This document shows, piece after piece, positions 12,755-26,323 of a stretch of DNA of 64,000 nucleotides. The stretch lies in NCBI GenBank assembly GCA_029245345.1, contig JAQWPM010000012.1, forward strand, positions 1 to 64,000, read 5' to 3'. The notes under the pieces are model-generated. The model did not search any database, was not told the origin of the DNA, and saw only the letters and a list, made by a program, of their open reading frames with translations. Position 1 is the stretch's first letter. Each line of letters begins with the position of its first letter. The position numbers and the translations under genes are program-made. This DNA is from Longimicrobiales bacterium. Lineage in GTDB: Bacteria > Gemmatimonadota > Gemmatimonadetes > Longimicrobiales > Gaopeijiaceae.

Positions 12755-13285
12755 CAGCGACTGATTCGCCATCTCCTCACCGAGAGCTTGTTGATCTCGC
12801 TCGCAGCAGCCGGGCTCGGCATCGCGTTCGCGTACAAATTGAACTGGGCGATGGTTTGGATCTCCGCGGGCACCGAGGAGAGCTTCAACATGGCTGAACT
12901 AAACGGGCGGGTACTGGCGTTCACATTACTCGTCTCACTCGCCGCCCCGCTCGTCTTCGGCCTGTTCCCGGCCCTGCGTGCGTCTTCGGCGGAGCCACAA
13001 GCCCCACTCCGAGATGGGCGCTCGGCAGACAGAGATCGGTCCGGCAAGCGAGCCCGGGGCTTCTTGGTCACGGCACAAGTGTCCATGGCGCTCACCCTAA
13101 TGATCGTGCGGGCTGGTGGCTCCGTTCGGCCGCAGTCGGCTCCTTGGAAACCTGGTGTTCGGGATCAGCCCCACCCATCCCGTGACATTCATCGGAGTGC
13201 CCTTGGTTTTGGCAGCGGTCGGGACGCTCGCCAACATTCTCCCAACTCGGCGAGCAACTCGCTTGGACCCTGCCAACACACGCTC
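12755..13285 (+). pseudogene. Remnant of an ADOP/MacB-FtsX-type permease, internally deleted
   Basis: In one frame 12755-13110 encodes QRLIRHLLTESLLISLAAAG, then membrane segments, PALRASSAEPQAPLRDGRS and RARGFLVTAQVSMALTLMI. This is the middle of an ADOP permease (acidobacterial duplicated orphan permease family). In another frame 13119-13285 encodes GRSRLLGNLVFGISPTHPVT and ANILPTRRATRLDP, the very C-terminus. Roughly 300 residues of periplasmic domain that should lie between them are missing, and the N-terminal half is absent. The first frame is open into the downstream protease gene, so an automatic caller would make a false 1005-residue fusion. Expression is unlikely. Confidence 0.85.
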
Positions 13286-13330
13286 CGGGCCGACTGGCGG
13301 AGATCCCGGAAGCGCACAGAACGCGCTGGT

Positions 13331-13375
13331 AGGATGGAGGGCGGCCGGATACTTTGTCGGCCGCCCTCTTCGTTT
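13331..13375 (+). terminator. Intrinsic terminator upstream of the metalloprotease
   Basis: GAGGGCGGCCG (13337-13347) pairs perfectly with CGGCCGCCCTC (13358-13368) around a 10-base loop and is followed by TTCGTTTG. It probably closed transcription of the now-decayed permease. Confidence 0.6.
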
Positions 13376-13399
13376 GCACCCGAACTTCGGAGAACGAAC

Positions 13400-15805
13400 A
13401 TGAAACGCTCAGACACCTTACTGACGCTCCTACTCGCTTTGGCCACCTCGGCCTTCGTCCCCGCACATCTCTCCGCATCCCCATTCGTGTGGCAGGAAGA
13501 AGAACAAGCGGATGAGGAGGACGAGGGCGAAGGAACGTCATACAGCGACGTCATCACCGACGAAGCCGTATCCAGCCAAGGCCTATTCGACACACACATG
13601 ATTGGCACTGATCTCTTCTACGAGATCCCTCTCGACATGATGGGCCGTGAGATGGTGCTCCTCACCCGGATCGCGCGTACCCCCTCTGGTGCGGGATACG
13701 GCGGATCGAAGGCCAACACCTCCACGGTGCGCTGGGAACGTGAAGGCGATCGCGTCCTCCTACGTCTGGTGAGTTACCAGAACTTCGCAGACGACACGAC
13801 AGCGATCGCAGGTGCCGTGAGAAATTCGAATTTTGAACCCATCATCATGGCGTTCGACGTCGAGACGATGCCTGAGGACTCGATGGCGGTCGTGGTTGAA
13901 GTGACAGACCTGTTCACGGAGGACATCGCGCTTCTAGGCCTCCAGAAGTCCCGTCGAACGGCATACAGCGTGCGCCGCGTCGACGCGGATCGGACCTACG
14001 TGATGCGCGCCTCGGCGTTCCCTAGGAACGTCGAAGTGAGACGCGTGCTCACGTACGATGCAACGGAGCCGCCTTCGAACTCTGCCAGCAACACACTCTC
14101 AATGGAGATGCATCATTCGATGCTCCTCCTCCCTGAGAATCCGATGGAGCCGCGCATGTGCGACGAACGCGTCGGCTACTTCAGCACGAGTCAGACAGAT
14201 TACGGGCTCGACACTCAGCGAGCGGTCGAGACGTGTTACGTAACGCGTTGGCGCCTGGAGCCGAGCGACCCGGCCGCGTTCGCGCGGGGCGAGTTGGTCG
14301 ATCCGGTCCAGCCCATCGTATACCACATCGACCCGGCGACGCCGCCCAAATGGGTGCCTTACCTCAAGCAGGGCGTCGAGGACTGGCAGGCTGCCTTCGA
14401 GGCAGCGGGCTTCAGCAATGCGATCATCGCGGTGGATGCACCGGACGATCCGAATTGGGACCCAGAGGACGCTCGCTACTCGGTCATCCGTTACCTGGCC
14501 TCCGACGTCCAGAACGCTTCGGGCCCACACGTACACGATCCGCGATCGGGTGAGATCCTGGAAAGCGATATCCAGTGGTACCACAACGTCATGAACCTGG
14601 TGCGCAACTGGTACTTCATTCAGACCGCGGCGGCGAACGAGGAAGCCCGTGGCGTGACGTTCTCGGACGAAGTCATGGGTGAACTGATCCGCTTCGTCTC
14701 AGCCCATGAGGTCGGACACACGATCGGGCTGCAGCACAACATGCAGGCTTCGTCCGCCTACCCGGTTGAGCAGCTCCGGACACGCTTCGTGTGTGAAATG
14801 GGCGTCGCGCCATCCATCATGGACTACGCTCGCTTCAACTACGTCGCGCAGCCTGGGGACGACACGTGCTTTATGCCACTGGTCGGGCCGTATGACAAAT
14901 TCGCGATCGAGTGGGGCTACCGACCGCACGCTGGTGAAGACCGGAACACGGAAAAGGCCATCCTTCGGGACTTCGTCGCGGACATGCAGGAAGACCGCAC
15001 GTACCTCTTCTCCAGCTCGACGGGGAGTGATCCGTCAGCACTCTCGGAAGCGATTGGCGACGACGCGATGCGTGCGTCCGACTATGGCGTTGAGAACCTC
15101 AAGCGCGTCACGGACAACCTACGCGACTGGACCCGTGAAGACGGAGAGGACTACACGCAGCTGCAGGAGCTGTACAACAACGTGGTCAGCCAGTGGAACC
15201 GATATACCGGCCACGTCGTGAACAACCTTGGGGGCGTCGTTCGTACCCGCAAACGGCAGGATCAGGACGGCGTACCGTACGAAATGGTACCGCGAGACAT
15301 GCAGTCTCGGGCCATGGAGTACATGAACCGTCAGGTCTTCGCGACCCCCGTTTGGCTGCTGAACGCCGACATCTTGGACCGTTTCCAAGGCAGTGGCGCG
15401 ACGGACTTGGTACGGGCCCGCCAGTCGTCTGCACTGAACCAGGTGCTGAACGTGGCTCGTATGAAGAGGCTGATCGAGCAGGAGGCGTTTAATGGGAACG
15501 ACGCGTATGGGCTCGGGCAGATGCTCGACGACCTACGTGGCGGTGTATGGGCCGAAGCTCAGAGTGGGGGCGAGACCGACACCTACCGCCGAAACCTCCA
15601 ACGTGCATATCTGGATCGCATGGGGGTCCTGATGGAAGACGAGGACGCCCTTCAGACCGACATCGCCCCGTTCGTTCGGGGACAGCTAGGTGCGCTGCGG
15701 GGTGAACTCGCCACCGGCGCAGATGGGATGTCGCACCGTGCGACACTCCTGCACTTCCACGATGCGATCCAACGCATCGACGCGATCCTAGATCCGAACG
15801 GTTAG
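13400..15805 (+). CDS. Secreted zinc metalloprotease (DUF5117/DUF4953-type metzincin)
   Basis: Translation starts at the ATG at 13400, preceded by GGAG and followed by a signal peptide (LLTLLLALATSAFVPAHLSA), giving 801 residues. An acidic linker (EEEQADEEDEGEG) follows the signal. The catalytic site HEVGHTIGLQHN (about residue 438) is the HExxHxxGxxH zinc motif of metzincins. SIMDYARFNY about 35 residues later serves as the Met-turn. Flanking regions match the DUF5118/DUF5117/DUF4953 arrangement of large secreted bacterial metalloproteases common in Bacteroidota and Gemmatimonadota; the substrate is unknown. The open frame reaches back to 12788 through permease debris, which is not part of this protein. 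A strong bidirectional terminator follows at 15821-15862. Confidence 0.9.
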   Translation: MKRSDTLLTLLLALATSAFVPAHLSASPFVWQEEEQADEEDEGEGTSYSDVITDEAVSSQGLFDTHMIGTDLFYEIPLDMMGREMVLLTRIARTPSGAGYGGSKANTSTVRWEREGDRVLLRLVSYQNFADDTTAIAGAVRNSNFEPIIMAFDVETMPEDSMAVVVEVTDLFTEDIALLGLQKSRRTAYSVRRVDADRTYVMRASAFPRNVEVRRVLTYDATEPPSNSASNTLSMEMHHSMLLLPENPMEPRMCDERVGYFSTSQTDYGLDTQRAVETCYVTRWRLEPSDPAAFARGELVDPVQPIVYHIDPATPPKWVPYLKQGVEDWQAAFEAAGFSNAIIAVDAPDDPNWDPEDARYSVIRYLASDVQNASGPHVHDPRSGEILESDIQWYHNVMNLVRNWYFIQTAAANEEARGVTFSDEVMGELIRFVSAHEVGHTIGLQHNMQASSAYPVEQLRTRFVCEMGVAPSIMDYARFNYVAQPGDDTCFMPLVGPYDKFAIEWGYRPHAGEDRNTEKAILRDFVADMQEDRTYLFSSSTGSDPSALSEAIGDDAMRASDYGVENLKRVTDNLRDWTREDGEDYTQLQELYNNVVSQWNRYTGHVVNNLGGVVRTRKRQDQDGVPYEMVPRDMQSRAMEYMNRQVFATPVWLLNADILDRFQGSGATDLVRARQSSALNQVLNVARMKRLIEQEAFNGNDAYGLGQMLDDLRGGVWAEAQSGGETDTYRRNLQRAYLDRMGVLMEDEDALQTDIAPFVRGQLGALRGELATGADGMSHRATLLHFHDAIQRIDAILDPNG

Positions 15806-16547: not shown

Positions 16548-17465
16548 CTAGGGCTGGTCACCGAGTTCGGAGAGCGCCATGCGAGCCGCCCCTGCAGGCG
16601 GATCGAGTTCGCGGCTCGCCAAATCCACAGCCAGCTGTTGGACGGCGCCATTGAGGCGTCTGTGGAGCGGTCCTCCTTTCCACACGAGTCCACCCCAGAC
16701 ACAAAGCGTGGGTCGACTCTGCCACGGGCCTGATCTCTCGACGCCCACGGTAATGTGGCCGACCAACTCTTCAACAGCCTCCGAGAGAATTCGCTCGGCT
16801 ACCCCATCCCCGGCGTCAGCGACTTCCGTGACAGCGGGGGCCAGTGCGGCAATGTCTGACTTCGAAGCCGACGCCGCCCACGCGATCAGGTCGCCGGGTT
16901 CCTGCCCGCTGGAGTGCACAAGAGCCTTCCCGGTCAGCTCTGTTTCAGGCCCGCGCCCATCCGCGGCGGCAGCCACGCTCCGCAGAGCTTCACGACCAAT
17001 CCAATAGCCGCTGCCTTCGTCGCCCATGTCTTGCCCCCACCCGCCGACACGAATCATGTGCGCGCCTGGGCTTCTCGCCCACAGAATGGAGCCGGTCCCT
17101 GCGATAAGCAGGATGCCTGGCTCGGCGAGCGGGAACGCGTCCGAGAAGGCCGCTTCCACATCTGTGCCGACAAAGACTCGCTCGGCGAGACTGGCCTCCA
17201 TCAGAGACGCTCGCACAGCAGCCTGGACGTCATCTCGGCCCGCACCGGAGAGTCCAGCCCAGAGCACGTCGACCGGAAGGGTGACATCCGCATCTTCGAG
17301 TGCCCGAGCCACTACGGATACCACTGCAGCGGACACCGCTCCCGGATCGTCCAGGGTCGCAACGGCACCCGGACCTTCTGCTCGAGCCATCTCATGGCCC
17401 GTCTCGTCCAGAACCACAGCGCGCGTGCTGGTGCCCCCACCATCCACGCCCACCACGATCCGCAT
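16548..17465 (-). CDS. BadF/BadG-family sugar kinase (N-acetylglucosamine/MurNAc kinase-like)
   Basis: This ASKHA-fold kinase begins MRIVVGVDGGGTSTRAVVLD (phosphate-1 loop). LLIAGTGSILWA (phosphate-2) is near residue 110, followed by the GGWGQDMGDEGSGYWIGREA motif, characteristic of eukaryotic-type GlcNAc kinase and of bacterial MurK, which phosphorylates MurNAc and GlcNAc. From the ATG at 17465 it has 305 residues, the normal size. The ATG overlaps the TGA of the symporter gene by one base (TGATG), so translation is coupled. In this locus it should phosphorylate amino sugars imported by the symporter; specificity for GlcNAc, MurNAc or both is an inference. Confidence 0.85.
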   Translation of the reverse strand: MRIVVGVDGGGTSTRAVVLDETGHEMARAEGPGAVATLDDPGAVSAAVVSVVARALEDADVTLPVDVLWAGLSGAGRDDVQAAVRASLMEASLAERVFVGTDVEAAFSDAFPLAEPGILLIAGTGSILWARSPGAHMIRVGGWGQDMGDEGSGYWIGREALRSVAAAADGRGPETELTGKALVHSSGQEPGDLIAWAASASKSDIAALAPAVTEVADAGDGVAERILSEAVEELVGHITVGVERSGPWQSRPTLCVWGGLVWKGGPLHRRLNGAVQQLAVDLASRELDPPAGAARMALSELGDQP

Positions 17466-18898
17466 CACACAGACCGTTTGGGAAACGCGAAGCCCGCGAG
17501 CCACCCGACGATCAGGGTGATCGTAGCACCGGTGGGTACGTACCACGGCCACGCCATCGCGCCTCGAAGAAGCGTCACCGACCCGATCCCGACCGCGACC
17601 CCAATGATCGCCGCTGTCTGCCCTGGCTTGGTGGTAAGGACACCCAGGGCGAAGACTCCTAACAGGCCACCGTAGACGAGCGCGGCGACTCCTAAAGCCA
17701 CCTCAACAGCTGAGGTGCCCTGGGACAGCGGGATAAACAGCGTCGCACCTCCAATCAGAAGCGCCGCCCACACCAGCGTGAAGATCTTCCCAGCCTTGAG
17801 AATCCGAGCCTCGTCGTCGCGAGCTCCAGCCAGCGGAGCCCAGTAGTCGTAGGCCGTCGCGGACGCGAGAGAATTGATAGATGACGACAGGGACGACATA
17901 GCCGCCGCGAAAACCCCGGCGATCAGGAGTCCAGTCAGTCCCGGCGGAAGCTGCTGGACGATGAACGTCGCGAAGATCTCGTCCGTGGAATCGAACGCGG
18001 CACCCTCGTAGAAGGCCCACAGGCCGATTCCCACCATCAAGAAGAGCAGGAACTGGAAGATCACCACCACTCCGCTACCGATGAGTGCCTTCTGGGCCGA
18101 TCGCTGGTCTCTGCAAGTGAGCAGACGTTGGACAATGAGTTGATCGGTTCCGTGCGAGGCCATCGTGAACACCGCGCCTCCAAGAACACCCGCCCAGATC
18201 GTATATGCAGTTGTGAGGGTCCAGGAGAAGTCGATCACCTGGAGCTTGCCCGCCAGATCGGCATCGGCTAATGCGCTACCCCATCCGCCAGGCACGAGCG
18301 CCTGAATGGCGACGAGCGTGACTAGTGCACCAAGCAGGTACAATCCCATCTGTACGGCATCGACCCAAACCACCGCCTTGATGCCCCCGAAGTACGTGTA
18401 AATCACCGTCAACACTCCGATCACAGCAATCGACACCGGATACGGCCAGCCTGTGATCAGTGCGAGCGGGATCGCCGTGGCGAACAACCGCACCGAATCG
18501 GCCAGTAACCGCGTGACCATAAAGATGGCCGAGGTGAAGCGCCGTGCCCCGAGTCCGAACCGATCTTCCAAGAGGGCGTAAGCCGTCGAGAGTTCCCCCC
18601 GGTAGTAGGCGGGCAGAAAAAGTGCGGATACCGCGACACGACCCGCCAGGTACCCGAGCGTCAGTTGCAGAAAGACAAGACTCCCGGCATACGACACACC
18701 CGGCACACTCAAGAACGTCAGCGTACTCGTTTCCGTGGCCACCACGGAAAGCATGACTGCGACCCACGGGAGCGACCGGCTCCCTAGGAAGTAGTCGGTT
18801 CCGCCGGATTGGCCGCGCCCGAGCCATGCACCCCAAGCGGTGGTAGCGAGCAGGTAGACGATTAGGACGAAGAAATCGAGTGTGGTGAAGCCGGTCAT
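17465..18898 (-). CDS. Sodium:solute symporter (SSS family), probably for an amino sugar
   Basis: This integral membrane protein of 477 residues has about 13 predicted hydrophobic segments. SSS family signs are YFLGSRSLPWVAVMLSVVAT near the N-terminus, YTYFGGIKAVVWVDAVQM in the middle and LLIAGVFAAAMSSLSSSINSLASA toward the C-terminal half (sodium-site region). It is likely to import a sugar with Na+. The start overlaps the stop of the upstream chimeric gene by four bases (ATGA), and its own stop overlaps the kinase start. Between cell-wall hydrolases and a GlcNAc/MurNAc-type kinase, the expected substrate is GlcNAc, MurNAc or a related sugar. Confidence 0.9.
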   Translation of the reverse strand: MTGFTTLDFFVLIVYLLATTAWGAWLGRGQSGGTDYFLGSRSLPWVAVMLSVVATETSTLTFLSVPGVSYAGSLVFLQLTLGYLAGRVAVSALFLPAYYRGELSTAYALLEDRFGLGARRFTSAIFMVTRLLADSVRLFATAIPLALITGWPYPVSIAVIGVLTVIYTYFGGIKAVVWVDAVQMGLYLLGALVTLVAIQALVPGGWGSALADADLAGKLQVIDFSWTLTTAYTIWAGVLGGAVFTMASHGTDQLIVQRLLTCRDQRSAQKALIGSGVVVIFQFLLFLMVGIGLWAFYEGAAFDSTDEIFATFIVQQLPPGLTGLLIAGVFAAAMSSLSSSINSLASATAYDYWAPLAGARDDEARILKAGKIFTLVWAALLIGGATLFIPLSQGTSAVEVALGVAALVYGGLLGVFALGVLTTKPGQTAAIIGVAVGIGSVTLLRGAMAWPWYVPTGATITLIVGWLAGFAFPKRSV

Positions 18899-19890
18899 GA
18901 TGCACCCTCGCCTAGTGAAGCCGTAGCAACCTGCGGGGTCTCAGTGGGGACACCGTCGCGCAGGGCGACGTAGGCTTCCATCGCATAGTACGCGGGAAGT
19001 CCAAGCGCCCTCAGGAGCTCCGCTGTCCCGCGGTTACGATCCACAACCCGCTGCCAAAACTCTCTCGGATCGGGCCCCGGGAACGGAGCCGAGTCCTTTT
19101 GCGATTCGTGCTTGAAGATCGCCTGGATCTTCTTTCTAAGCTCCTCTTCAGAGAGCGGAACCAGCACAGTCGCTTCATTGACGTTCCACTCTTGCCAGGC
19201 CCCACGATAAAGCCAGAGTTCGGGCGGATCGCCTTCGAACAGGGCGAGCGCCGCCTCAACCGCTTCGAGACACATGCGATGGGTCCCGTGGGGATCGGAC
19301 AGGTCTCCCGCAGCGAAGATGATGGAGGGACGCTTCTCATTCAGAAGTTCGAGGACAATGTCCACGTCGGCGGAAGAGATGGGGTCCTTCTTCACCTTCC
19401 CCGTCTGATAGAACGGAAGGTTCAAGAACCGCCCACTCGAGGCCGACAGCCCAGATGCTTCCAGACCTGCGATGGCCTCGGTTTCCCGAATGATCCGCTT
19501 CAGGGCCTGGACGTCATCGATGTCGACATCCGCCGGGTCTTTCCCGGCGAGGTTCTGGTGAATGCCGTCGGACAGCTCGTTCACAACGCCCGGTTCACCG
19601 AGGCCGACGGCTTTAGACGCTCTTTGCGAGAAATCGAGGTAGCGCCGGACCTCGTGGTCGAACACCGCAATGTTACCGGAGGTCTGATAGGCCACGGTGA
19701 CCCGGTTTTCGTTCTCTGCGAGCTTCCGGAGCATGCCTCCCATCGAGATAACGTCGAGCCACCACGGAAGTGAGCGACCGCCTAGGAAGTGCTCACTCAG
19801 CGAGGACCCTGCTCGCCGCGACATCGCGACCCCAATGGCGCCGGCGAACGCGAAGCAGAGGGCGATTATGGCCCAATCGAGGAACGTCAC
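18895..19890 (-). CDS. Chimera: N-terminus of a sodium symporter joined in frame to the PIG-L half of a NagB-like protein
   Basis: Residues 1-46 are the start of an SSS symporter: one membrane helix (WAIIALCFAFAGAIGVAM), then LSEHFLGGRSLPWWL. From residue 46 on (codon near 19753) the sequence is the C-terminal domain of the long NagB-type proteins (glucosamine-6-phosphate deaminase plus PIG-L deacetylase): VISMGGMLRKLAENENRVTV, AGDLSDPHGTHRMCLEAV, YRGAWQEWNVNEATVLVPLS, FKHESQKDSAPFPG. The symporter body (about 430 residues) and the whole deaminase domain are absent. The PIG-L metal motif HPDD is cut at the junction so that only its last Asp remains; the second motif (HGTHRMC) survives. Both ends keep ATGA overlaps with neighbours, implying an original order symporter-nagB-symporter. 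Either a real in-operon deletion or an assembly error; an active enzyme is unlikely. Confidence 0.8.
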   Translation of the reverse strand: MTFLDWAIIALCFAFAGAIGVAMSRRAGSSLSEHFLGGRSLPWWLDVISMGGMLRKLAENENRVTVAYQTSGNIAVFDHEVRRYLDFSQRASKAVGLGEPGVVNELSDGIHQNLAGKDPADVDIDDVQALKRIIRETEAIAGLEASGLSASSGRFLNLPFYQTGKVKKDPISSADVDIVLELLNEKRPSIIFAAGDLSDPHGTHRMCLEAVEAALALFEGDPPELWLYRGAWQEWNVNEATVLVPLSEEELRKKIQAIFKHESQKDSAPFPGPDPREFWQRVVDRNRGTAELLRALGLPAYYAMEAYVALRDGVPTETPQVATASLGEGAS

Positions 19891-22800
19891 GGAGTACGCT
19901 TTCTCACAGGCTGGTCAGTGATAGCGAGCAGAGCCGCGTCTGCGACAGCGCGCCTCAGCGGTACATGTTTCGAATTCTCACGGCTCGGGTGGACCCGGTT
20001 GGTGAGCAGGATCACCCACACGTCCAGTTCGGGATCCATCCAGATGGACGTCCCGGTATACCCGGTGTGACCGAACGCACTCGAGGTCACGTAGTCACCC
20101 CCAGACGATCGCTCGCCGGGTGTGTCCCAGCCCAATCCTCGGGTGGACGTCTCGTCGAACCGGGTGGTGAACATCGAAAGCACCCCTGGATCGACGATCT
20201 GCTGAGCGATCCCTCGGCCTAGTGGGCACGGCACTCCGGCATCATCACCGGGCTGACAGGCTGGTGACTCTCCGCCGTTGAGCATCATCTGGGCGAAGAC
20301 GGACAGGTCCACGGCAGTGCTGAACAGCCCGGCATGGCCAGCCACACCACCCATAGCGTCCGCATTCTCGTCGTGTACTCGGCCCCACACGAGCTCGTCA
20401 CGCCAGAGCGTGTCTACCTCGGTCGCGGCGATACGCGGCTTCAAGGAAGCGTCCGGCCGGTATCGAGTTTCGGCCATTCCCAGCGGATCCCACAGTCGCT
20501 CTTGGAGGAGCGCATCGAGCGTCTGGCCCGATACTTCTTCGATGACCCACGCCAACGTCATGATGCCGATATCCGAGTAGATGGTCTCGAGACCCGGATC
20601 CATGTCGAGCGGCTCGTCCGCTGCTGCGTTCTTGTAGGCCTCGAGTCCTTCGTGGTCGAAGAACCACCGACGGAAAGGCGGCAGGCCCGTCCGGTGAATC
20701 AGCAGTTGCCGCACGGTGATCTGGTTCTTTCGTTCGTCCCCTCTGGACCACCATGGCAGATACTGAACCACGGGCGCATCGAGATCGAGGGCCCCGTCAC
20801 CAACGAGCATCATGGCTGCAGTCGTCGTCCCCACAACCTTCGAGACAGACGCCATGTCCCAGATCGAGGTTGTGGTGGTCGGACGCCCACTCCCGTATGC
20901 GAGTTCGCCGTACGCGTCGAGCTTCACGAGTCGTCCGTGCCGGCCGATCGCCACAGTCGCGCCAGAGAAGGCAGAGTCGTCGAGTCCGGCCCTGATGATG
21001 GAATCGACTCTCGCGAGTCCTTCGGAAGACATCCCGACGGAAGCCGGATCGGCTACCGTCTGATCTTGGCCGGAGATCCCACCTTCACCCGTGCGTGCAA
21101 CGATTCCCGCCGCAACAAGCGGGTCATCCACCACGCGAGTCACGACCCGGGTCGTCACCTTGTCTCGATTCAACCCGTGACCCAGATCGAAGAGCGGAGG
21201 GATCTGGATCGGCAGGCGACCGGTGATGGCCTCCTCACCAAAGAGCGCCGCAACCGCTGCGCGTTGGGATACTTCCCGGTCGCCCCAGGCTACCATGTAG
21301 CTGGACACGTCGGGAAGCGCGCGAACCAAATACGGGCTAGCGAACGACAACAGGACGGTGGGTCTCTGCCGTGCGCTGGAGTTCACCAATCTGCTAAAGC
21401 GCTCTGGGAGCGCATCCGCTCCGGAGCCGGCTCGTGTGTGGAGATAAACGCTGACGATCACGCGGTCGGCACCTTCCACCGCAGCCGCGGCCGCCTCGTA
21501 AGCGGCCTCATCGCTGCGCTCGTCGATGCGGACCTCACGAGCGCTCGGAACCCGAGAGAGCAACCCAGCCGCAAATGCGCGGTTGGCCCACAGCCAGGTC
21601 GACGGAGCGTACCGCACATGGACCGTACGGACGGGGTCTTCAGCTCGCATCGGCACGAGGCCCGCGTCATCCTGTACCAACGTCATGGAGCGCGCAGCAG
21701 CGGTGTCGGCGAAGGCGAGGTGTGCACCCGAGCCCACGACATCGTCTACGGCATCCAACGACACGAAGCGATTCCGATGCAGCCCGAGTTTGGCCTTCAT
21801 CTCGAGAAGCCGGCGTGCCGAGTTCTCGAGTCGACGGCGGTTGATACGACCCGCATTGACCGCCGCCACCACGGCGTTGATCGCGGCTGACACATCCTTG
21901 GGCGACAGAATGACATCCGAGCCGGCTTCAACAGCGCGGACCGATGCCTCACCGATGCCATACGCATCCGTGATCGCACCCATGGTCATGGCGTCCGTGA
22001 ACAAGACGCCATCGAACGCCAGATCCGCCCGCAGCAATCCCGTCATGATGTCAGGCGAAAGCGTGGCCGGAGGACCGTCGACCCCGAGGATCTCAGGCAG
22101 CGCCACGTGTGCCGTCATAATCGCGTCCACACCCGCTTGGATCGCATGATCGAAGGGAACGAGCTCGACCGCATCCAGGCGTGCCCGGTCAGCCGGGATG
22201 ACTGGCAGATCGACGTGTGAGTCGACCGAGGTGTCGCCATGCCCAGGGAAGTGTTTCCCCGTCGTGAAGGCCCCTCCCTCCTTCGCTCCCCGGATGAACG
22301 CAGCACCCATACGTGCCACGAGCTGGGGATCGGCCCCGTACGAGCGACTCGCGATGACCGGATTGTCGGGGTTGTTGTTCACGTCCAAGACCGGAGAGAA
22401 CAGCAGGTGGACGCCGGTCGCCCGAGCCTCGACGGCTGTAATGCGGCCGTACTCGAAGGCGAAGCGCTCGTCGTTGACCGCCCCAAAGGCCATAGTCGGC
22501 GGAAACGACGTCCCTCCGCCCTGCGGCAGCATGGATGGGAGGGCATAGGACCCGTTGATGCGCATCCCCGGCCCACCGTTCTCGAAGTCCGCCGTAATCA
22601 ACAGGGGGATCTCGGCCCGCTCCTGGAGGGCGTTGAGCTTCGCGACGTAAGCGTGGGGTGTTCCAATGGAAGGCGACACGCCGCCGATCTTGTCCGTGAC
22701 CACCCATGTCTCGAGGGGTTCGAAGTCCGGGCTGCTCGGCGACACGTAGCCGCCGGGAATCCACTCGATCACGAGCTGCCCGACGAGTTCCTCCAACGAG

Positions 22801-22961
22801 AGGCTCGCGAGGGTCTCGTCGACCCACTCCTGGGCGTCGTCGTCCAAGTCATTGATACGACCAAAGGGCTTCGGCACGACCGTACCCGTCTGACCGGAGC
22901 ACCCGGCGACAACCAAAACGACTGTGAGCGCGAGGGCACGCACCGGGTTAGTTGCGACCAC
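19887..22961 (-). CDS. Lipoprotein fusion: GH3 N-acetylhexosaminidase (NagZ-like) plus class C beta-lactamase/AmiE-like serine hydrolase
   Basis: The 1024 residues begin with a lipoprotein signal (ALTVVLVVAGC). The GH3 domain, residues about 35-380, carries GKHFPGHGDTSVDSH (NagZ His/Asp dyad loop) and FDGVLFTDAMTMGAI (nucleophile Asp). A GH3 C-terminal-type domain follows to about 600. From about 640 comes a penicillin-recognising serine hydrolase domain: SVSKVVGTTTAAM (SxxK), YSDIGIMTLAWV (YxN-like) and HTGYTGTSIW (HTG, KTG-equivalent). In Bacillus subtilis the MurNAc-L-Ala amidase AmiE belongs to this serine hydrolase family and works with NagZ, so the fusion probably couples GlcNAc removal with peptide release from muropeptides; this is inference. 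The start overlaps the previous gene by 14 bp, and the stop overlaps the chimera start (ATGA). Confidence 0.87.
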   Translation of the reverse strand: MVATNPVRALALTVVLVVAGCSGQTGTVVPKPFGRINDLDDDAQEWVDETLASLSLEELVGQLVIEWIPGGYVSPSSPDFEPLETWVVTDKIGGVSPSIGTPHAYVAKLNALQERAEIPLLITADFENGGPGMRINGSYALPSMLPQGGGTSFPPTMAFGAVNDERFAFEYGRITAVEARATGVHLLFSPVLDVNNNPDNPVIASRSYGADPQLVARMGAAFIRGAKEGGAFTTGKHFPGHGDTSVDSHVDLPVIPADRARLDAVELVPFDHAIQAGVDAIMTAHVALPEILGVDGPPATLSPDIMTGLLRADLAFDGVLFTDAMTMGAITDAYGIGEASVRAVEAGSDVILSPKDVSAAINAVVAAVNAGRINRRRLENSARRLLEMKAKLGLHRNRFVSLDAVDDVVGSGAHLAFADTAAARSMTLVQDDAGLVPMRAEDPVRTVHVRYAPSTWLWANRAFAAGLLSRVPSAREVRIDERSDEAAYEAAAAAVEGADRVIVSVYLHTRAGSGADALPERFSRLVNSSARQRPTVLLSFASPYLVRALPDVSSYMVAWGDREVSQRAAVAALFGEEAITGRLPIQIPPLFDLGHGLNRDKVTTRVVTRVVDDPLVAAGIVARTGEGGISGQDQTVADPASVGMSSEGLARVDSIIRAGLDDSAFSGATVAIGRHGRLVKLDAYGELAYGSGRPTTTTSIWDMASVSKVVGTTTAAMMLVGDGALDLDAPVVQYLPWWSRGDERKNQITVRQLLIHRTGLPPFRRWFFDHEGLEAYKNAAADEPLDMDPGLETIYSDIGIMTLAWVIEEVSGQTLDALLQERLWDPLGMAETRYRPDASLKPRIAATEVDTLWRDELVWGRVHDENADAMGGVAGHAGLFSTAVDLSVFAQMMLNGGESPACQPGDDAGVPCPLGRGIAQQIVDPGVLSMFTTRFDETSTRGLGWDTPGERSSGGDYVTSSAFGHTGYTGTSIWMDPELDVWVILLTNRVHPSRENSKHVPLRRAVADAALLAITDQPVRKRTP

Positions 22962-24897
22962 TGGTGTTTTCCTTGCTCGGAATCGTCAATCCATCTCCGA
23001 TCTCGTAGAGCGGTGGGATACGCGTCGGTATTCGACCTTCAATATCGAATTCACCAAATAGTGCACCCGCAGCGGCCCTTTGGCTGGCCTCGGACCCACT
23101 CCAGGCAAGCATATACGCGCGGACGTCCGGGAAGGTGGTGACGAGGTAAGGGTTACCGAACGAGACCACCACATGAGGGATTCCCGCTTCGTCGAGGTCC
23201 TCGATAAAGCCAATCAATTCTTCAGGGAGCGCCATCGAGCCCTGATAAGAGACAGCAGTCACATAGGTGCTGACGACCACTAGTGCCTGCTGGCGAGCCT
23301 GGCGCATGAGGCCTTCGTACACCCCAACGTTCGAGTCTCGGGTGATGCTCGCGTTCGTCAGCCGAGGATAAGTCGAACGCAACCGTCGGTTGAAGTAGCG
23401 GCCCGCCAATACGTCCGACTCGCGTCGGTAGGAAACGGACATCACCCGCGCCGTTCGGGTTCCCCGAAGCGGAAGTAGATTCCCGCCGTTCTTGAGAACC
23501 GTGATGGACGCCTCAGCGACTCTTCCGGCTGCTTCGACATGCTCCGGTATGCCGACACTTTCGAAGACACCCTCAATGGGCACCGTGCGCTCCTCGTGAA
23601 GTCCCATTCCGGCCTTGGTCTCGAGCAGTCTCCGCACGGAATCGTCCAGACGGGCCTCGGAAATGCGCCCCGACTCGACAGCTGCCACGATCCCGTCCAC
23701 CGCACGCTTTGGCGAGGGCGGCATAAGGATGACGTCGGCCCCGGCCTCAAAGGCTCGCACAGCGGCTTCTTCAGCACTGTGCTGACGCGCGATGGCACTC
23801 ATGTCCATGGCATCTGTGAAAAGGAGGCCGTCGAAGTGCATGTCTTCCCGCAACAAATCGGTGAGAATTGCGGCAGACAACGTCGCCGGATCCCTGAGGC
23901 CATTGTTCAGCGAGGGCACCGAGATGTGAGCGGTCATCACCGCACCCATACCCGCATCGATCGCAGCTTGGAACGGGAATAACTCGACCGAATCCATTCG
24001 AGCGCGATCGTGAGTGATCAGGGGGAGGGCCATGTGGGAATCCACATCTGTGTCACCGTGTCCGGGAAAGTGCTTCCCTGTAGCGATGCCTCCGTTCTCC
24101 TGCACTCCGCGCACGAACGCTGCACCGAGTGCGGCAACCTGTGCTGGATCCTCTCCAAACGAGCGGACGTTTATCACGGGGTTGTCTGGGTTGTTGTTGA
24201 CGTCCAGAACGGGAGCGAACGGCACGTGGATGCCCACTGCTCGTGCTTCCACCGCCGTCACACGGCCCATGACGTAGGCAAGCTCGGTATCTCCCGCTGC
24301 GCCCAGCGCCATGAGGGAAGGAAAGTCGGTGGCCCCACCGAGTTCGATCGTCCCCGGCATCTGCACGGCCCCTCGCATGCGGAAGCCCGCACCCGTCTCG
24401 AGGTCGGCCCCTACGAGGAGTGGGTATTTCGAGTGCACCTGGAAATCGTTCAGCTTCGCGGCCACCTCGGTGGGCGAGCCGACGGACATGATCACACCCC
24501 CGATCCCTTCTTCCTCGATGTAGTCGAGCACCCGGTCGTGGCTAGAAGAGCCCTCCGGAGCGAAGTCGCCGAGCACCCACGGCATGATCAACTGCCCAGC
24601 CTTCTCGCGGACGGTCATCTCCCTAAGCGTGCGCTCTACCCAAGCGGCTCCGGTATCCAGATCTCGAGCCAGAGGCTCCGGATGGATCATCGGCTCCACA
24701 GGTGGACCAGAGGGACTTTGTTCGAGGCCTAAGGAGTCCTGAACCTCTGGTGATTCGGCCGGAACGGGCGGGCTCGCGGCCGGTTCTGGCGTCACCATGG
24801 GGGTCGGTGACCCACAGGAGACGAGGCCCAGGGCCAAGATCCACACCTTATGCGATCTAGGCGTGAACGGGTCGGGACGGGCTTGGATTGACAGCAT
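22948..24897 (-). CDS. Lipoprotein GH3 beta-N-acetylglucosaminidase, NagZ-like
   Basis: I start it at the ATG at 24897, giving a lipoprotein signal ending VWILALGLVSC; the frame is open to 24945. A Pro/Glu-rich linker precedes the GH3 catalytic barrel. The barrel carries GKHFPGHGDTDVDSH (acid/base His-Asp loop specific to NagZ-type enzymes) and FDGLLFTDAMDMSAIA (nucleophile Asp). A C-terminal alpha/beta domain ends near residue 649. NagZ removes non-reducing GlcNAc from muropeptides. The two-domain exported form resembles the secreted NagZ of Bacillus rather than the cytosolic single-domain enzyme of E. coli. It is a paralogue of the first domain of the next gene, and heads the leftward operon. 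Confidence 0.88.
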   Translation of the reverse strand: MLSIQARPDPFTPRSHKVWILALGLVSCGSPTPMVTPEPAASPPVPAESPEVQDSLGLEQSPSGPPVEPMIHPEPLARDLDTGAAWVERTLREMTVREKAGQLIMPWVLGDFAPEGSSSHDRVLDYIEEEGIGGVIMSVGSPTEVAAKLNDFQVHSKYPLLVGADLETGAGFRMRGAVQMPGTIELGGATDFPSLMALGAAGDTELAYVMGRVTAVEARAVGIHVPFAPVLDVNNNPDNPVINVRSFGEDPAQVAALGAAFVRGVQENGGIATGKHFPGHGDTDVDSHMALPLITHDRARMDSVELFPFQAAIDAGMGAVMTAHISVPSLNNGLRDPATLSAAILTDLLREDMHFDGLLFTDAMDMSAIARQHSAEEAAVRAFEAGADVILMPPSPKRAVDGIVAAVESGRISEARLDDSVRRLLETKAGMGLHEERTVPIEGVFESVGIPEHVEAAGRVAEASITVLKNGGNLLPLRGTRTARVMSVSYRRESDVLAGRYFNRRLRSTYPRLTNASITRDSNVGVYEGLMRQARQQALVVVSTYVTAVSYQGSMALPEELIGFIEDLDEAGIPHVVVSFGNPYLVTTFPDVRAYMLAWSGSEASQRAAAGALFGEFDIEGRIPTRIPPLYEIGDGLTIPSKENTSGRN

Positions 24898-24970
24898 CGC
24901 GTAGAGGCGACTCGAGTAGGTGGAATTCGCTTGCGTTGACGGCATCGGACGCGACCCCGAAGCTTGCCCT
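24898..24970. promoter_or_regulatory. Divergent promoter region of the cell-wall locus
   Basis: Only 73 bp separate the leftward GH3 start (24897) and the rightward NamZ start (24971), so both transcripts must begin here or just inside the genes. GCTTGCGTTGACGGCATC contains a possible -35-like TTGACG for the rightward gene, but no good -10 follows. Shared regulation is likely. Confidence 0.35.
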
Positions 24971-26323
24971 ATGAAAAAGACAAATCGTGGGCGCGCGCAG
25001 CGCCGAGTCTGGGACGGTCGAGAAGGTACCGGCTACCCGAAAACGTCACAATCCTGCTTCACTTTCCTGCTGTGTCTTACCCTAGGAGCGTGCGGCGTTC
25101 CGGGTGGAGACGCCGCGGAAAGCACAGGACAGGACGCTGCCATTGGTGTCCGCTCCGGCATCGAGGTCCTGATCAGCGATTCGTTGCATCTCGTCCGTGG
25201 GAAACGGGTCGGGCTGCTCACGAATCATACGGGCGTCTATTTTCGAGACTTCGAGCAGGAAGCTGGAGCCCCGCGGGAGTTCGGAAGCATGATCGACGCA
25301 CTCCACGAGTCACCAGATATGGATCTCGTGGCCCTCTACGGTCCGGAGCACGGCATCCGCGGTGAGGAACGAGCGGGAGCTCACATCGAGAGCGGGGTCG
25401 ACGACAAGACCGGACTCACGATCCACTCACTGTATGGACAGACACGCCGTCCCACGCCTGAGATGCTGGAAGGTGTGGACGTTCTGGTCTTCGACATGCA
25501 GGACATCGGCGCTCGATACTACACCTACGTCTCCACCATGGCCTACGCGATGGAAGCGGCTGGTGAGAACGGTGTCCCTTTTGTGGTTCTCGACCGCCCG
25601 AACCCCATCCGAGGGGACGCGGTGCAGGGCAATGTGCTGGATCCGGAATACTCGACGTTCGTCGGGCTGTACCCCGTCCCAATGAGACACGGCATGACCG
25701 CGGGTGAACTCGCTCGCATGTTCGTCGGCGAATTCGGCATCGACGTGGATCTCACGGTCGTGCCCATGGAGGGCTGGCGGCGCTCCATGACCTTCGAAGA
25801 GACTGGACTGCCTTGGGTGGCCCCGTCCCCGAACATCCCGACCCAAGAAAGCGCGCTGGCCTATCCGGGCACGTGTCTCTTTGAAGGCACGCCTCTGTCG
25901 GTCGGGCGCGGAACCGAGCGAGCCTTTCAATGGATCGGCGCACCGTGGCTGGACGGCCCCGCCCTCGCTGAGGCCCTGAACGGGTATAACCTGGAAGGGG
26001 TCAGCTTCGAGGCAGTCACATTTACGCCCTCCAACGCCGGCGACAGGAAGTTCGAAGGCCAGGAAGTGTCGGGCGTCCGCTTGGTCCCATCCGCAACGAA
26101 CTACGATGCCTCGAAGGCTGCGGTCGCCATGCTGATCGAGGCACGAGCGATGTCCGGCGACGATTGGTCGTGGAGCGTGGGACACTTCGACCGGCTTGCT
26201 GGAACAGATCAGTTGCGGATTGGGCTGGACGCTGAAGAGAGCTTCACCGCATTGGTCTCCACGTGGGACGCTCAGACGTCCGCATTCGAAGTATTGCGTG
26301 CCCCCTACCTGATCTACAATTGA
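24971..26323 (+). CDS. namZ: NamZ-like exo-beta-N-acetylmuramidase (DUF1343, GH171), lipoprotein
   Basis: DUF1343 proteins were identified as GH171 exo-N-acetylmuramidases (NamZ), releasing terminal MurNAc from glycan ends. The N-terminus carries a lipoprotein signal (FTFLLCLTLGAC). Family sequence includes RVGLLTNHTGV, YGPEHGIRGEERAGAHIESG, VDVLVFDMQDIGARYYTYVS, DRPNPIRGD, LYPVPMRHGMTAGELARMF and APSPNIPTQESALAYPGTCLFEGTPLSVGRGT. I use the ATG at 24971; the open frame reaches 24920. The stop TGA overlaps the next ATG by one base (TGATG), so it is coupled to the M14 gene. In Bacillus subtilis, namZ lies with nagZ and amiE; the same functions recur here divergently. Confidence 0.9.
   Translation: MKKTNRGRAQRRVWDGREGTGYPKTSQSCFTFLLCLTLGACGVPGGDAAESTGQDAAIGVRSGIEVLISDSLHLVRGKRVGLLTNHTGVYFRDFEQEAGAPREFGSMIDALHESPDMDLVALYGPEHGIRGEERAGAHIESGVDDKTGLTIHSLYGQTRRPTPEMLEGVDVLVFDMQDIGARYYTYVSTMAYAMEAAGENGVPFVVLDRPNPIRGDAVQGNVLDPEYSTFVGLYPVPMRHGMTAGELARMFVGEFGIDVDLTVVPMEGWRRSMTFEETGLPWVAPSPNIPTQESALAYPGTCLFEGTPLSVGRGTERAFQWIGAPWLDGPALAEALNGYNLEGVSFEAVTFTPSNAGDRKFEGQEVSGVRLVPSATNYDASKAAVAMLIEARAMSGDDWSWSVGHFDRLAGTDQLRIGLDAEESFTALVSTWDAQTSAFEVLRAPYLIYN

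Follow-up and report, generated by a model that had tools for sequence, protein, structure and literature searches.

The open reading frame (ORF) at 18895–19890 on the reverse strand of the window (the whole 64,000-nucleotide stretch of DNA analysed here) raises the question of whether two genes of one operon have been joined into a new membrane protein, or whether it is what remains of their loss. An initial annotation had read this ORF, which encodes 331 amino acids from a GTG start, as an in-frame chimera of a symporter N-terminus and the PIG-L part of a NagB-type protein. The locus lies on an 871-kb contig (C12) of the source genome (G000; 3.79 Mb in 30 contigs, 98% complete), in an operon whose first and second SSS symporter genes we refer to as SYM1 and SYM2. 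Its features are:

24920–26323, forward strand: divergent NamZ-type exo-beta-N-acetylmuramidase (PF07075, 291.5 bits; PF20732, 143.5 bits)
22948–24945, reverse strand: GH3 glycosidase (NagZ-like), the operon's first gene (PF00933, PF01915)
19887–22961, reverse strand: NagZ-like GH3 domain with a beta-lactamase-fold domain after it, hereafter GH3-lactamase (PF00933, PF01915, PF00144)
19756–19890, reverse strand: SYM1 remnant, GTG start and codons 1–45 (first transmembrane segment, then loop), identified by identity to relatives' SYM1 and by hydropathy
19751–19762, reverse strand: deletion junction, placed by reference to G018 for SYM1 and to G018, G104, G105 and G008 for NagB
18895–19755, reverse strand: nagB remnant, the PIG-L part at the C-terminus, running from the final Asp of HPDDD through to the stop (NF002557, PF02585, alignment to intact NagB)
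17465–18898, reverse strand: SYM2, an intact SSS symporter (PF00474, 118.6 bits; TIGR00813, 209.6 bits; 85% identical in G001)
16548–17465, reverse strand: BadF-type sugar kinase (PF01869, 108.9 bits), whose ATG overlaps the SYM2 stop (TGATG)

The divergent NamZ, the two NagZ-like GH3 enzymes and the kinase together suggest a pathway for salvage of peptidoglycan amino sugars. Against the N-acetylglucosamine kinase model NF046058, the kinase scored 96 bits, which is under the cut-off; it is 55% identical between G000 and its sister species G001, whereas its operon neighbours are 78–85% identical. Elsewhere in the window, the start of an ORF at 12788–15805 (positions 12788–13450, forward strand) resembles the broken end of a permease, upstream of a metalloprotease-like gene, and is possibly another gene remnant.

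Alignments to relatives, together with the PF02585 and NF002557 matches, bore out the reading of the ORF as an in-frame chimera. Residues 1–45 match the N-terminus of an SSS symporter that is intact in relatives (about 70% over residues 1–50), and this piece is 62–78% identical to the intact and truncated SYM1 of relatives; the symporter origin originally proposed therefore stands, with a length of 45 rather than 46 codons. Residues 46–331 align to residues 351–632 of the NagB-PIG-L protein of G018, with 60–73% identity in relatives. PF02585 matched at 37 bits, above its gathering score of 28.2, starting at profile position 11, while NF002557 matched positions 383–650 of 653 at 372 bits, under its curated cut-off of 384. 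Neither PF01182 (the N-terminal NagB deaminase domain) nor PF00474 (SSS symporter) matched the ORF product, which has one hydrophobic segment (hydropathy maximum 2.1 within residues 1–27, followed by arginines) compared with a transport core of at least 10 transmembrane segments. Relative to SSS symporters (PF00474, TIGR00813), the 45 codons thus keep the GGRSLPWW loop and a single transmembrane segment, the first; all further ones are missing. The C-terminal 286 residues are collinear with the two-domain NagB-PIG-L protein ("glucosamine-6-phosphate deaminase-like", NF002557/PRK02122, as in G018), but the ORF has lost the deaminase domain entirely, together with the first part of the PIG-L domain, HPDD included.

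The junction, at about 19755/19756, cuts the metal-binding motif as first described: of HPDDD (NagB residues 347–351 in G018) the last Asp alone is left, and the HPDD of PIG-L deacetylases (PF02585) is absent from the ORF. With this motif lost, PIG-L catalysis would not take place, and the remnant is expected, from its sequence, to be catalytically dead, even though residues of the second half of the domain are kept, including the HxxH of SDPHGTH. An AlphaFold model (mean pLDDT 67, below 50 in the symporter part) was distantly similar to PIG-L/LmbE deacetylases (BC1534, 2IXD; MshB, 1Q74; BshB, 6P2T), with a best query TM of 0.45, but those enzymes possess the HPDD that the remnant lacks; since the underlying alignment consisted of intact homologues, the model is silent on the stability of the truncated protein. 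The start and stop overlaps noted earlier are present on both sides, the GTG start overlapping the GH3-lactamase stop (GTGA) and the ORF stop overlapping the SYM2 start (ATGA).

A deletion remnant implies relatives in which both genes are intact, adjacent and in the same order. Among the Gemmatimonadota MAGs used for comparison, which included Longimicrobiales and Candidatus Palauibacter, this arrangement was found in three members of the same family (G018, G104 and G105), whose operons read GH3, GH3-lactamase, SYM1, NagB-PIG-L, SYM2 and BadF kinase in one direction, with an intact SYM1 of 587 amino acids and an intact NagB-PIG-L of about 633. The predicted ancestral order of symporter, nagB and symporter is therefore confirmed, and other relatives carry different remnants. 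DNA is indeed missing, although the amount is larger than the roughly 2 kb first estimated: relative to G018, about 2.68 kb has gone, beginning at SYM1 codon 46 and ending at NagB residue 350. Among database entries, five records titled Gammaproteobacteria (L123, L125, L127, L129 and L157) carry a Gemmatimonadota-type nagB with 63–69% identity, and are probably mislabelled or misbinned contigs.

In-frame deletion between neighbouring operon genes can give rise to gene remnants and fusions. The present case resembles these in that two adjacent genes are joined and the intervening DNA is lost, but differs in that several different in-frame events have occurred at one locus. Literature searches found nothing on NagB with PIG-L, and no paper bearing directly on in-frame deletions linked to operon coupling or to gene fusion.

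The NagB C-terminus was found in 72 of 154 genomes of the order, and in these 72 it lies in a long frame everywhere except in G000, G001, G114 and pieces at contig ends. In G001, the sole other genome of genus g1 compared, SYM1 1–50 is joined in frame to NagB 512. The SYM1 codons lost in G000 are kept by G001 and the NagB residues lost in G001 are kept by G000, and because each keeps sequence that the other has lost, neither junction can be derived from the other by further loss; judged from these sequences, they would represent either two independent deletions or separate enlargements of one smaller ancestral deletion. Within genus g20, two contigs of G106 (C116 and C76) are identical over 80 bases of SYM1, beyond which they diverge into two in-frame alleles: 52::388, at the end of one contig, and 64::512, which precedes SYM2 on the other. 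The 52::388 junction is common to G020, placing one junction in two species; G020 also carries a second, frame-shifting deletion, yet its ORF continues without interruption until a GTGA overlap with SYM2. SYM1 is missing from G114, where NagB residues 1 to about 18 are joined in frame to residue 519 (residues from about 19 to 518 being lost). Short SYM1 frames in G016, G002, G101 and G094 were considered as deletions and rejected, as they are contig ends.

Both SYM1 and nagB are often absent altogether in genera g6, g50, g51 and others, and at 11 loci where neither is left, the GH3-lactamase stop and the SYM2 start share a 4-base overlap. In G123, contigs C42 (L095) and C79 (L178) carry nagB-plus and nagB-minus operons with flanks 99–100% identical, so that either the loss is polymorphic in the sample or the bin combines two closely related strains. 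Some of the different in-frame events at this locus are apparently segregating within one sample. A genome search for the PF01182 NagB-type deaminase found none in G000, G001, G114, G106 or G020, while the same search did match in genomes with intact nagB. G000 retains a full-length SYM1 paralogue (C21:441165–442889; 50% identity to G018 SYM1), a possible reason for the dispensability of SYM1.

The remnant pieces were located by six-frame searches, so out-of-frame remnants would also have shown. The first deletions were nonetheless in frame in all five cases (chance 0.004), or in five of six when the second deletion of G020 is counted (chance 0.018). Between G000 and G001, dN of the pieces was 0.12–0.13, equal to that of SYM2 and GH3-lactamase; dS between these genomes is near saturation, and a formal dN/dS for the remnant therefore has little power. 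Measured against intact relatives, the G000 PIG-L piece showed amino-acid distances in the usual range. In the g20 SYM1 piece, 10 of 15 base changes fell at third positions, and the amino-acid changes numbered 5, where neutrality predicts 10.1 (P 0.003, provided that the deletion is shared by descent). These substitution data would be compatible with recent loss, with selection for an open frame, or with a retained role, but selection for an open frame by itself would not account for the few amino-acid changes in the g20 piece.

From these observations, we consider it probable that the ORF is what a natural in-frame deletion left behind, one stage in a repeated loss of the SYM1-nagB cassette that is tolerated through translational coupling. 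By comparison with the intact operons, this lineage lost about 2.68 kb, taking with it SYM1 and, for this assembly, the only NagB-type deaminase of the genome. The product, almost certainly a non-functional fragment, would combine a single transmembrane segment with a PIG-L piece that has no catalysis. Ribosomes would move on from the GH3-lactamase gene across the remnant and so reach SYM2 and the kinase, such that in-frame deletions would be tolerated, while frame-breaking ones would cut downstream expression; such coupling of the operon is the probable reason why the remnant has stayed in frame. Coupling is not strictly needed, given the 94-base spacers before SYM2 in genus g50 and the stop of the G114 remnant, which does not overlap SYM2. 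Also counting against the reading as a whole, the pieces lack signs of long neutral drift, a pattern that fits recent loss or a retained role.

The left breakpoints, at SYM1 codons 45, 50, 52 and 64 of 587, are clustered (about 0.0002 under a uniform model), and several intact SYM1 copies contain an inverted repeat, TGGTGGC/GCCACCA. This raises the unlikely but conceivable alternative of a mutational hotspot, in which a hairpin or repeat around SYM1 codons 44–55 starts deletions regardless of selection, and which could act as a cause within the preferred reading. The hairpin is a weak candidate for the cluster, ranking within the strongest 5–23% of SYM1 windows, and few bases are shared at the junctions, g20 excepted. 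Moreover, the uniform model leaves out selection against longer truncated membrane proteins, which would explain the cluster equally well.

It is rather doubtful that SYM1 codons 1–45 to 1–64, the last 115 NagB residues, or both, have been kept repeatedly for a function, whether as a small membrane-anchored regulatory protein or as a translated bridge ORF for expression of SYM2 and the kinase. Assembly error, whereby the genome would have an intact SYM1-nagB but about 2.7 kb was skipped, or strains were mixed, during assembly, is improbable. Mixed strains do yield alternative contigs at this locus in G106 and G123, but the G000 locus sits in a long contig of a near-complete, 30-contig assembly, and searches elsewhere in it found neither another nagB piece nor a close match to the middle of SYM1. 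The junction shares only about 2 bp, so no repeat accounts for a skip; different in-frame deletions in independent assemblies, and the 52::388 junction common to two species, make an error less likely still.

Finally, a working chimera, in which the first transmembrane segment anchors the PIG-L-like domain at the inner membrane face for a non-catalytic binding or regulatory role, agrees with the intact frame, start and overlaps, the hydrophobic segment and arginines, the HxxH and a substitution pattern that is not relaxed, but seems highly improbable given the loss of HPDD and with it the expected metal ligands, the low pLDDT and distant PIG-L likeness of the model, and an architecture that is not conserved, since G001 is without the whole active site and G114 without the symporter part. 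The suggestion of a PIG-L-like domain on a membrane anchor thus holds formally, in that the ORF encodes it, but fails in that HPDD and the segment preceding it are gone. A new, working membrane-anchored PIG-L enzyme is very unlikely; the differing remnants of relatives lose even more of the domain, pointing to gene loss.

We conclude that the ORF, going by these sequence comparisons, looks like a real but ordinary deletion remnant, one of a series of parallel in-frame losses that is unusually well sampled, and it should not be annotated as a membrane-anchored PIG-L protein. Repeated loss of the cassette would end in clean removal of both genes, and peptidoglycan amino sugar would then go to biosynthesis and not to glycolysis. 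Within a single bacterial family, this pair of operon genes is being lost again and again, through partial in-frame stages and with alleles that still seem to segregate. This makes the locus a natural setting in which to ask whether the survival of a deletion depends on translational coupling.
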